This document shows positions 7,038-14,738 of a stretch of 35,103 nucleotides of DNA, in pieces. Every line of letters starts with the position of its first letter. The stretch's first letter is position 1. The notes beneath the pieces were generated by a model. The model worked only from the letters and a program-made list of their open reading frames with translations, had not been told where the DNA came from and did no database searches. A program made the position numbers and the translations under genes. This DNA is from Woeseia sp. (GTDB taxonomy: Bacteria; Pseudomonadota; Gammaproteobacteria; Steroidobacterales; Woeseiaceae), in NCBI GenBank assembly GCA_013003155.1, contig JABDKF010000014.1:1-35103 (forward strand), written 5' to 3'.

Positions 7038-7443
7038 TACGACGTAACGAGACTCTCGTCGAGTGGTGTTTGGTGAAACCTAACAGGTCGTGCGCCGCGA
7101 CGTAGTGAACCAGGTCAAGCAACCGACAATGCAGGTTTGGCTCACGGCAAAAGCGGAAGCATTCTATCAGAATGAACACATCGGCCGAAATATTCCGGAT
7201 TTGCGAGATGGCCTGCACCGATACCAAGGCCTTTGCATCTACTATTCGTATTCTCGGACGTTTTACGCGCAATGTTCGATACGATATTGTCGGGCCTGAC
7301 GCAGTTTTTCGACCGTTGCGCGGTAAGGGTTTCTCAGGACAGGGCTTGCCTCGTCCGCGATCAATTAATCCACTGGCTAGGATTTTCCCGTGCGCATCGC
7401 TCCGCCGTCCTGGGTTCGACGGCCGATGAGTCCTCGAGATTCT
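7038..7443. other. Non-coding region upstream of the methyltransferase and tRNA promoter
   Basis: About 400 bp before the tRNA promoter. An open minus-strand frame crosses it (6877-7449), but its N-terminal part is Arg/Pro/Ser-rich and its C-terminal part overlaps the methyltransferase in another frame, so I do not call a gene. The stretch should carry the methyltransferase promoter. Confidence 0.4.
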
Positions 7444-7472
7444 TGACACTGCCTGCGGTCAAACCTATAGTG
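7444..7472 (+). promoter_or_regulatory. Sigma70 promoter of the tRNA-Ala/tRNA-Glu operon
   Basis: A perfect -35 box TTGACA (7444-7449), a 17-nt spacer and the -10 box TATAGT (7467-7472) are followed by a GC-rich discriminator (GCGCGCC). The first tRNA begins 13 nt after the -10 box. A GC-rich discriminator is typical of stable-RNA promoters under stringent control. Confidence 0.85.
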
Positions 7473-7485
7473 CGCGCCTCCGTTG

Positions 7486-7560
<75 letters not shown>

Positions 7561-7583: not shown

Positions 7584-7659
7584 GTCCCCATCGTCTAGAG
7601 GCCTAGGACACCGCCCTTTCACGGCGGTAACAGGGGTTCGAATCCCCTTGGGGACGCCA
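7584..7659 (+). tRNA. tRNA-Glu (anticodon TTC)
   Basis: Acceptor stem GTCCCCA/TGGGGAC, discriminator G and encoded CCA (7657-7659). The anticodon stem CCGCC/GGCGG encloses CTTTCAC, giving anticodon TTC. It starts 23 nt after tRNA-Ala. The last 20 bases of the gene region (7641-7660) recur downstream as part of a tandem array. Confidence 0.97.
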
Positions 7660-7705
7660 ACTCAAAAAAAAGCACCCGCCAAACGCGGGTGCTTTTTTTT
7701 GAGTT
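7659..7705 (+). terminator. Rho-independent terminator of the tRNA operon (repeat unit 1)
   Basis: A perfect 21-bp inverted repeat around a 5-nt loop: the core GCACCCGC (7672-7679) pairs with GCGGGTGC (7685-7692), with eight A before and eight T after. It can stop transcription in either direction. It lies directly at the end of tRNA-Glu. Confidence 0.93.
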
Positions 7706-7842
7706 GGCCGCAAGGCGAGTGGAGGCAAACCCTCGGGTTCGACAAAACGCGCCAGCGTTTTAGACGCACGCAGTGCGCCCCGCAGGGGTGAGAATCGCCC
7801 AACGGCGATCCGAATCAATCCCCTTGGATATTACAACTTACT

Positions 7843-7872
7843 AAAAAGTACCCGCCTTGCGCGGGTATTTTT
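7843..7872. terminator. Second terminator hairpin (repeat unit 2)
   Basis: TACCCGC (7849-7855) pairs with GCGGGTA (7861-7867), flanked by an A-rich and a T-rich run with one bulged G. It lies 176 bp after the first terminator at the same place in the repeat unit. On the minus strand it is placed to end bfr transcription. Confidence 0.75.
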
Positions 7873-8012
7873 AAATGAGCTCGCCGCAGGCGAGTGGAGG
7901 CAAACCCCCGAGTTCGACAAAGCGCGCGAGCGTCTTGGACGCACGCAGTGCGCCGCGCAGGGGCGAGGATCGCCCCAAGTCGACCCGAATAATTCCCTTG
8001 GGGACGCCAAGA

Positions 8013-8477
8013 TTACGCCTGCGACTGCAGATAGTTCTCCGTGCCCATTTTTTCGAGCAGCCCGAGCTGCGTTTCCAGCCAGTCGACGTGTTCTTCCTCG
8101 GAATCGAGGATGTCTGAAAACAATTTGCGGCTCACGTAGTCCTTGTGTGCCTCGCAGTAGGCGATCGCAGCCTTCAGGTCGGGCAGGGCGTCGTACTCCA
8201 TGTCGAGATCCGATTTCAGGATCTCGGGAACATCTTCACCGATGTTCAGTTTCCCAAGATCCTGCAGGTTCGGCAGTCCTTCCAAAAACAAGATTCGCTT
8301 GATCAACTCATCGGCGTGCTTCATCTCATCGATTGATTCTTCGTACTCCTTATCGCCCAATGTTTCGAAGCCCCAATCCTTCAGCATTCGGGAGTGCAGA
8401 AAATACTGGTTGATCGCGGTCAACTCGTTCTTCAAAACGCGATTCAAATGATCGATGACGGTGGCATCGCCTTTCAT
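8013..8477 (-). CDS. bfr: Bacterioferritin
   Basis: This 154-residue protein assembles in its family as a 24-mer cytoplasmic shell that oxidises and stores iron. It is collinear with E. coli Bfr: MKGD start, [17 protein letters not shown] and [21 protein letters not shown]. The dinuclear ferroxidase ligands are all present (Glu18, Glu51, His54, Glu94, Glu127, His130), as is the haem-binding Met52. A strong ribosome site (AGAGGAG) precedes ATG 8477. The gene is separated from upstream bfd by a terminator (8612-8633), so it probably has its own promoter. The stop codon abuts the last tRNA-Glu-like repeat, whose terminator (7843-7872) probably ends this transcript. Confidence 0.98.
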
Positions 8478-11256: not shown

Positions 11257-11831
11257 AACAACTCGTCTCGCAGACGCGGAAACCGCTTCCCGGGCCACTT
11301 TGGCCAGCGCAGCCGGATATGAAGGATTGCGGCGTCGGAGTGGCCCCAACTTCCCTCCGACGTTATTTGCCCGTTAGTCACTCTTGCCGCCGGTTTTTGG
11401 ACCCGCTTCCGGGCCATGCCGAGTCTGCGCCCTTACCGGTTAGACGCCGCAGCTATCGGCACAGAGAGCTTGCTGCCCTATTTCGAGCCGCGCGTCCGGA
11501 TTCCGGCGATCTGTGTACAAGACTAGAGCCATTCTGAAATCAGAATCGCTAATACACCCGAGATGGCCGCGCCCCGCGAGCGATGCCGTCAGTCGGCGTT
11601 TCCGCCGAGTCTGCCTGGTGGCTGGGTCAAAAAGGGCGTGGCACGGTCCCCGAGGCCCGCAACCAAACGCTCGTGATTCGACGCCTGTTGGCTTCTGGCC
11701 AAGCACACACGCGCAGCTCAACCGTTCAGGGCTTCCAGCGCCAGCTGTGACGCGTGCAATACATTTACCAGGCCTGTCGTGGCACCATTACGTTAATTCG
11801 CAAGACGACATCCTCCAGAGAAAAGAAAGCC
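11257..11831. other. Long intergenic region between TonB receptor and prsR
   Basis: About 575 bp between divergent genes. Frames here (for example 11220-11417 and 11440-11721, minus) have no recognisable domain and look non-coding. A TGGCAC sequence at 11778 does not have the downstream TTGC needed for a sigma54 promoter. No RNA gene was recognised. Confidence 0.4.
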
Positions 11832-13232
<1,401 letters not shown>

Positions 13233-13263
13233 GCGCGAAAGCTCGATGATAACGTGAGAGTGC

Positions 13264-14622
13264 CTAGTTGCCCTTGAACGAGTCGGGATTAAGGTCGTGG
13301 CGGGAAAGGAGTTTGTAAAAGTCGGTCCGGTTGCGCTTGGCCAGTCGCGCCGCCTGGCTCACGTTTCCACCCGTGATTTGCAGAATCTGTGACAGGTAGT
13401 TGCGGGTAAACTCATCGCGCGCGTCGCTGAAGGAGGCGAGCTTGCCCGCGTGCTCGCCAAGTGACGATTGCACCAGCTCACCACTGATCACGGGCGAGCG
13501 CGATAGCGCGACATTCTGCTTAACCACATTATAGAGTTGGCGAATGTTGCCGGGCCATTCTGCCGATACCAGTAACTCGACGGCTTCCGGCGCATACACT
13601 TTTCGCTCGCTGGCCGTTTCCTCGGCAATCTCTTTTAGAAAATGAGAGACCAGCAGGGGTATATCTTCGCGCCGGTCATTCAGCGGCGGCAGGCGCATGT
13701 TCACCACGTTGAGCCGGTAATACAGGTCTTCGCGAAAACGTCCTTCGCGCATCATGTCTAATAAATCGCGATGCGTTGCCGACAAGATGCGCACGTTTAC
13801 GGGTAATGCTTCAGTGCTGCCAACCGGGCGCACCTGATTTTCCTGGAGTACCCGCAAAAGCTTAACCTGCAACCGCATCGGCATATCACCAATTTCATCG
13901 AGTAACAGGGTCCCGCCATCAGCAGCTTGAAACAGTCCCTTGTGATTTCTTGTCGCGCCGGTGAATGCCCCTTTCTCATGGCCAAACAACTCAGACTCCA
14001 GCAGGTTCTCTGCCATCGCGCTGCAGTTAATAGCAACGAAGGGTTTGTCGTGCCGTTCGCTGGCTTTGTGAATCGCCCGCGCCAATAACTCCTTGCCGGT
14101 ACCGGATTCACCGTTGATCAGGACGCGCGTGTCGGTCGCCGCCACCATCTTCGCCTGGTTAAGTGTTTCCTTGAGGCGCGAGTTGCGCGTGATAATCTCA
14201 GCCGCCCAGTCTTCCGCCACGTCAATGGCTGGCGAGCCCGACACTTTCATTGCGCGCTCGACCGTGGCAATAAGTTCGTCTTTGTCGACCGGCTTTGTCA
14301 GGAATCCGAATGCGCCGCCTTGCGTAGCGGTGACCGCGTCAGGAATCGTGCCGTGCGCTGTGATGATGACCACGCGAAGTCCGGGCGAGCGATTCTGCAA
14401 TTCTTTCAAAAGCGCAATGCCGTCCATCTTGTCCATGCGCAAGTCGGTTATGACGAGGTCGGGGTGAAAGTGATGGACAACTGACAGGGCACGCTCAGCG
14501 CTTTCTACAGCCTCCACTTCGTAGTCCTCCGCGCGGAGCCGAATACTCAGCAGCCGCAGCAAGCCGGGATCGTCATCGACCAGCAGGATTTTTCCTTTCC
14601 TATCAGTATTTTTTGGAGCCAT
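13264..14622 (-). CDS. glrR: Response regulator GlrR, sigma54-dependent activator
   Basis: Receiver, AAA+ and Fis-type HTH domains in order. Visible are ILLVDDDPG (12-20), phospho-acceptor Asp60 in DLVITDLRMD, the KPVD lysine loop, Walker A GESGTGKE (171-178), EKGAFTGA and DEIGDMPMRLQ. The C-terminal HTH is GNVSQAARLAKRNRTDFYKLL. It matches E. coli GlrR (QseF/YfhA), which activates sigma54 promoters such as that of the small RNA GlmY. The frame extends to GTG 14646 and ATG 14643. I prefer ATG 14622 because GlrR proteins begin only about ten residues before the first receiver strand. The gene order kinase, lipoprotein, regulator supports the assignment. Targets here are unknown, and no GlmY-like RNA was seen. 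Confidence 0.9.
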   Translation of the reverse strand: MAPKNTDRKGKILLVDDDPGLLRLLSIRLRAEDYEVEAVESAERALSVVHHFHPDLVITDLRMDKMDGIALLKELQNRSPGLRVVIITAHGTIPDAVTATQGGAFGFLTKPVDKDELIATVERAMKVSGSPAIDVAEDWAAEIITRNSRLKETLNQAKMVAATDTRVLINGESGTGKELLARAIHKASERHDKPFVAINCSAMAENLLESELFGHEKGAFTGATRNHKGLFQAADGGTLLLDEIGDMPMRLQVKLLRVLQENQVRPVGSTEALPVNVRILSATHRDLLDMMREGRFREDLYYRLNVVNMRLPPLNDRREDIPLLVSHFLKEIAEETASERKVYAPEAVELLVSAEWPGNIRQLYNVVKQNVALSRSPVISGELVQSSLGEHAGKLASFSDARDEFTRNYLSQILQITGGNVSQAARLAKRNRTDFYKLLSRHDLNPDSFKGN

Positions 14623-14738
14623 CGAGTTCCGGGATCCAGCCATCACGATCGACTATTATGGCGCTTATGGGAGCGTTTGTCCTACGGCAATCCGGTTGTC
14701 AGCCGGGGTTGACCATAATGCCGGTGTGAGAGAGAGCA

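Follow-up and report, generated by a model that had tools for sequence, protein, structure and literature searches.

Introduction

The closest described systems are the tRNA-linked repeats (TLRs) of Escherichia coli (Egan and Landy 1978; Rudd 1999; both as cited in PMC8144298). They have been known since 1978 and are without known function; 22 units are found at ten loci of E. coli, with the 3' 18–19 bp of a unit identical to the upstream gene, and conservation has been reported for Enterobacterales (PMC8144298). One of them, RttR, is annotated as a 171-nt RNA that ends at the CCA of the copied tRNA end. RrA, RrB and RrF of E. coli contain the same module between the terminators T1 and T2 and end in the 3' end of the upstream 5S gene. 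REP/BIME elements with their RAYT are comparable in being short intergenic palindromic repeats with variable stems.

In this study, a window of 35,103 nucleotides from Woeseia sp. (Woeseiaceae; assembly GCA_013003155.1, contig JABDKF010000014.1, positions 1 to 35,103) was analysed, in which a tandem array follows a tRNA-Glu gene.

Models and samples

The repeated block of the window was used to build the covariance model R1. A broader covariance model, R2, is based on 91 copies from the window's family and from other Gammaproteobacteria and contains no enterobacterial sequence. For E. coli, the tyrT-tyrV region served as control and ten further regions were taken, five of which carried tRNA or rRNA genes. 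Unit anatomy was described from 135 copies at 89 loci. The tRNA-Glu(TTC) site was compared at 22 loci in 21 genomes, and stem pairing was examined in an alignment of 86 distinct copies.

The array behind tRNA-Glu

A sigma-70-like promoter (TTGACA-17-TATAGT, 7443–7471, plus strand; 11 of 12 positions in a consensus scan) precedes a tRNA operon with tRNA-Ala(GGC) at 7485–7560 and tRNA-Glu(TTC) at 7584–7659, both on the plus strand and both identified with ARAGORN and Rfam. The last 19 nt of tRNA-Glu, AATCCCCTTGGGGACGCCA (7641–7659), are repeated at 7991–8009 with one mismatch (18/19 including CCA, or 19/20 counting the next A), for which the chance expectation in shuffles is 0.00. A middle copy at 7817–7827 keeps the first 11 bases, and the three 3' ends are spaced 176 and 174 bp apart. 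Repeat comparison confirmed in these points a preliminary description of the locus, which had reported the double recurrence, its spacing and the unequal preservation of the two extra copies.

The terminator hairpin t1 (7656–7708, plus strand) is a perfect 24-bp inverted repeat that extends into the tRNA-Glu 3' end, taking in its GCCA (z −10.2). Terminator t2 (7837–7879, plus strand) was recognised from its fold; it is weaker (z −3.5), yet above shuffles. No terminator was found behind the last copy at 7991–8009, where the stop codon of a convergent gene starts 4 bp further. This gene (bfr, 8013–8477, minus strand), delimited as an open reading frame and by comparison with relatives, adjoins the last copy and is presumably bacterioferritin-like, judging from its sequence. 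The earlier statement that each unit has a terminator applies to t1 and t2 and not to the last copy. As for structural selection on the terminator stems, both are foldable as claimed, and the case is thin within the window, where units 1 and 2 differ by a single compensated swap (C-G to T-A).

Each unit begins with a left flank, here called Q'. Q'1 (7709–7735) resembles, in degenerate form, the 3' half of the tRNA read as its reverse complement; this likeness is weak at the window locus and clear in relatives, where it was assessed in a pooled test. Q'2 (7880–7910) is homologous to Q'1. The flank is followed by a module, M. In M1 (7736–7821; found with R1 and R2, E=5e-23) the order is GGTTCGA, hairpins at 7743–7762, 7765–7777, 7778–7788 and 7792–7811, and CGAATC; M2 occupies 7911–7996 (R2, E=4e-19). 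All these features lie on the plus strand. The block 7713–7827 is 85% identical to 7888–8002 over 115 nt, and its hairpins are supported by the fold, in agreement with the conserved hairpin block per unit proposed before. Identity between 7641–7712 and 7817–7888 is 74% over 72 nt. Four block pairs are broken in unit 2 and two in unit 1; the second unit is decaying.

Relationship to the repeats of E. coli

The array (7660–8010) agrees with the description of TLRs in lying directly after a gene of a tRNA operon and in comprising two units with a period of 176 and 174 bp, within the range of one to five units and approximately 150–178 bp. An identity of 18–19 bp to the 3' end of the upstream gene is seen in unit 2 (18/19), while only 11 bases are left in unit 1. 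The hairpin core is homologous to that of the E. coli TLRs, as judged by R2. In the tyrT-tyrV region, where the order of the parts also proved by eye to be that of the window, the matches of this model were exactly the four tyrT repeats, of which three are spaced by 178 bp. It also matched the T1-T2 spacer of rrnB (E=3e-6, L300:533–623) and four units in the lysT operon, whereas the argVYZQ copies were recognised by eye only. Since R2 finds the tyrT, rrnB and lysT repeats without containing E. coli sequence, the array of the window is a two-unit TLR array, an assignment that we regard as nearly certain, and the independent origin assumed in the preliminary description is wrong. That a known kind of repeat occurs here in a new lineage is a sound observation.

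The likeness to tyrT that had been drawn earlier was right and is broader than claimed, comprising architecture, module and family. Like the tyrT repeats, the units end in a copy of the last 18–19 nt of the upstream tRNA, carry an inverted T-arm flank with RTGAGAA, and share the series GGTTCGA, hairpins, CCCGAAGGG, CGA(A/G)T or GAGT, and AATCC. The period, too, is alike (178 bp in tyrT, 174–176 bp in the window). The host tRNA differs (tRNA-Tyr and tRNA-Glu, respectively). The Rfam model RtT (RF00391) gave four matches in E. coli and none in the window (L097) or in the loci L138 and L091 at E values up to 5, because the stem sequences diverge too far from those of E. coli tyrT.

Unit anatomy and host genes

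Across the family, units composed of Q' - M - Q lie downstream of a tRNA gene, whose 5' and 3' parts are here designated P and Q, and of its terminator t. The module M, 90 nt long, contains four hairpins and is bounded by T-arm-like ends (GGTTCGA ... CGAATC-AATCC). Its linkers are constant (GGTTCGAC, GGACG, GGG-TGAG and CGAATC), whereas the stems vary freely. Among the 135 copies, 53 lie 55–95 bp downstream of a same-strand tRNA, and at 54 of the 89 loci the distance between a copy and such a tRNA is no more than 135 bp. Ser, Arg, Glu and Gln tRNAs predominate as hosts.

The trailing segment of the 53 first units was compared with the last 19 nt of the local tRNA, which yielded a mean of 15.7 and a median of 17 matches. 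Against tRNAs of other amino acids the mean was 10.6 of 19, and the own tRNA was the best match in 40 cases. The left flank Q' likewise scored higher against the reverse complement of the 3' half of its own tRNA than against others (26.7 vs 16.9) and has a recurrent GATGAGAACC motif, which is also present in E. coli.

A mirror arrangement was observed in several genera, in which an intact tRNA-Ser(GGA) or tRNA-Met is closely preceded by a tRNA copy truncated at its 3' end, with the module in the T-loop of this copy (L141:747–839 with tRNA-Ser at 870–960; L149 with tRNA-Met, minus strand; L117, L120, L129, L134, L151 and L189). At the tRNA-Arg(CCT) locus L089 (500–880), the module lies between direct repeats of approximately 95 bp that include the tRNA 3' end and the inverted T-arm, resembling a long target duplication.

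Distribution and spread

When the genome of origin was queried with the 372-bp array, further matches were obtained on other contigs. R1 detects 12 module copies in this genome. Sites lie behind tRNA-Arg(CCT), tRNA-Ser(TGA), tRNA-Ser(CGA), tRNA-Glu(CTC) and tRNA-Pro(CGG), and downstream of the block the 3' end of the respective tRNA is usually found copied; the tRNA-Ser(CGA) copy is truncated before this segment.

With R1, copies were found in 34 of 60 close relatives; at the level of the order 78 of 196 genomes were positive, and at that of the class 93 of 369. The broader model R2 detects copies in 125 of the 370 genomes sampled from the Gammaproteobacteria, which represent 109 of 273 genera, and also matches genomes of the phylum outside the Gammaproteobacteria. 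The distribution of TLRs is thus wider than in the papers found, which were mostly from the non-subscription literature; wider reports may exist. In the matches outside the class, the module core occurs as several scattered copies that have other ends and no tRNA in their vicinity (L292, L293 (G583), L294 (G614) and L295 (G633)). Modules also occur after tmRNA genes, e.g. at L156:728–818 and 910–1000 behind the tmRNA at 293–655, and at L290 and L296; tmRNA is not mentioned in the E. coli description, which covers tRNA and rRNA.

Presence of TLRs at the tRNA-Glu(TTC) site of relatives is patchy. A clear module was found in the own genome and in G009, G016 and G006, and a weaker one in G002; G010 and G039 appear by eye to have diverged or decayed remnants. 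No module was detected in at least 12 of the 22 loci compared, including that of G001 from the same genus. In four genomes with tRNA-Glu beside bfr, three of them also with tRNA-Ala, the site is empty.

Units of one array are most alike (51 vs 36 vs 31). In a nearest-neighbour test of spread within genomes, whose outcome was weak, the neighbour was in the same genome in 5 cases (3.7 expected) and at the same tRNA in 9 cases (3.2 expected), a number reached by 26 of 1000 shuffles.

Stem pairing at the RNA or the DNA level

The check for stem covariation in relatives that had been proposed earlier gave an overwhelming result. Among the 86 distinct copies, each of the 25 stem pairs has changed on both sides, and 96.7% of cells are paired. 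Covariation amounts to 0.60, compared to 0.125 after shuffling and a maximum of 0.052 in slid controls. These figures are favoured by an alignment fitted to the structure. The covariation is strand-symmetric, so it is no proof of selection for RNA structure. RNA under selection tolerates G-U pairs, while a DNA-level palindrome treats G-U and A-C alike. The count of G-U against A-C in stems is therefore a simple test that separates RNA function from upkeep at the DNA level.

In the M stems, G-U accounts for 0.7% of paired cells. Well-aligned M pairs comprise 12 G-U and 11 A-C, and a model-free parse of the stems gave 4 and 9, respectively. By comparison, the acceptor and T stems of tRNAs in the same loci contain 27 G-U and no A-C. 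The contrast between M and tRNA stems has a Fisher p of 4e-5 with relatedness ignored, and TLR copies are not independent observations. As G-U is no commoner than A-C in the M stems, their covariation is not readable as RNA function; the counts point to the upkeep of palindromes at the DNA level rather than to RNA selection. Strand-symmetric stems would also suit a comparison with REP/BIME. At L091, adjacent units of one array have quite different hairpin 4 sequences, which suggests that hairpins are replaced.

Outside M, substitutions in Q' lean to wobble-preserving changes (38 vs 17), a modest sign of RNA pairing. Folding of a Q':Q2 duplex was rejected as proof of such pairing, as values for the own tRNA (−19.7) and other tRNAs (−16.1) do not discriminate when the tRNA itself gives −21.4.

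Loops with GGA occur in over half of the class-level copies (24/41 and 23/41 for two loops) and in few copies from the window's family and order. They are strand-polar (GGA 47 vs TCC 2), which would fit a CsrA-binding RNA. At L187–L206, hairpins 1 and 4 have GGA loops (CAGGGATG, GCAGGAT) like those of CsrA/RsmA binding hairpins. By sequence, no CsrA-type GGA is present in the hairpin loops of M1 or M2, in contrast to RrA, RrB and RrF, which have GGA loops and bind CsrA.

These data bear on the possibility that the units encode small RNAs, which would result from transcripts that read through and are processed like tRNAs, and would have a regulatory role, for instance in binding CsrA or Hfq; the hairpins would then be maintained for the sake of the RNA. 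We consider this unlikely for the window. It is favoured by the GGA loops of many class-level copies, by the wobble bias of Q', by the annotation of RttR, by the binding of Hfq and CsrA by the E. coli RrA/B/F TLRs (PMC8144298) and by the detection of RtT RNAs of A. pleuropneumoniae on Northern blots (PMC4986893). It is opposed by the missing G-U preference in the M stems and, for the window, by loops free of GGA, a decaying second unit and patchy presence among relatives. Moreover, deletion of rrA/B/F had modest effects only, and for tRNA-type TLRs the prediction was that CsrA is not bound (PMC8144298). That the array could yield a small RNA ending like a tRNA, as suggested in the preliminary description, is plausible by analogy with RttR, whose annotated end is the copied CCA.

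Origin of the array

With moderate confidence, we interpret the array as a DNA repeat of the non-autonomous type, which undergoes duplication at the 3' ends of tRNA genes and owes its transcription to read-through. The presumed course is as follows. M would be a small non-autonomous DNA repeat that settles in genes for tRNA, tmRNA and rRNA, at the palindromic region of T-arm and terminator. Template switching or break repair between T-arm-like ends could then copy the local 3' end and terminator, which would leave the functional gene intact and result in tandem units, while the palindromes of M may be kept or reset at the DNA level. Transcripts would arise only via read-through of the tRNA terminator and, as with RttR, might be cut back to the copied CCA in the way of tRNA precursors. 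A dedicated function would not be required at the window locus. In favour of a DNA repeat are the module in E. coli, its 12 copies in the own genome and its presence in 125 of 370 genomes, the copying of each host tRNA's own 3' end, the match of left flanks to their own tRNA, the two-sided change of all stem pairs combined with the ratio of G-U to A-C, the patchiness and the likeness of units within an array; against it are the lack of a linked enzyme, the wobble bias of Q', the strand-polar GGA loops and the non-independence of the copies.

As to a linked enzyme, mobility by a RAYT/Y1 transposase was rejected. No module copy was found in 30 Y1_Tnp loci, and the genomes G001, G006 and G009 have module copies without that transposase. 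The module thus differs from REP/BIME, being tied to tRNA 3' ends and having no Y1 transposase beside it in these 30 loci. On the minus strand of L094, after a module in a tRNA 3' fragment, a sequence resembles by eye an IS91-type transposase in its C-terminal part. From this one fragment came the idea of rolling-circle insertion at GTTC in the manner of IS91, which found no further support and was dropped.

A role in cis is rather improbable. Here, the second terminator and the tRNA-like 3' end would insulate downstream genes (in the window the convergent bfr) or buffer processing of the tRNA 3' end. The position of first units directly after the tRNA terminator and the repetition of terminators along with units would suit such a role, as would rrnB of E. 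coli, in which T1 stops 87% of transcripts and the remainder ends at T2 (cited in PMC8144298). However, most tRNA-Glu(TTC) loci of relatives do without units, and the last copy of the window has no terminator.

The 3' ends of tRNA genes are classic att sites, and some copies lie inside 3'-half tRNA fragments of the island-end type, as would be expected if the repeats were att remnants of lost integrase-inserted elements. This origin is very improbable and was rejected as a poor fit, given that the repeats enclose one fixed 90-nt module and a terminator at constant spacing, that many different tRNAs and tmRNA are affected, each with its own 3' end, and that no integrase was noticed beside the array of the window. 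A local tandem duplication by chance, with an independent origin at tRNA-Glu, would agree with the greater likeness of units within an array, yet it is refuted by the module copies at 12 places in the own genome, in relatives and in E. coli and can hardly be credited.

Returning to a non-autonomous DNA repeat, we tentatively extend this interpretation to TLRs as a whole. They may be phylum-wide non-autonomous mobile modules whose homing target is the T-arm/terminator zone in genes for tRNA, tmRNA and 5S RNA, where they would restore the 3' end of the host gene around themselves; the rrnB T1-T2 spacer and the tyrT repeats would then be copies of a mobile palindrome that are domesticated or decaying. 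We hold this as possible, short of probable. The occurrence of the same module in 109 of 273 gammaproteobacterial genera and outside the class, behind many tRNAs and tmRNA, provides hundreds of natural replicates. In addition, the rrnB T1-T2 spacer, which is used in many plasmids, is now tied to the TLR family.

Inverted repeat elsewhere in the window

At 11754–14646 of the window, two oppositely oriented genes for sigma-54-type response regulators give rise to an inverted repeat of 96 nt at 76% identity.
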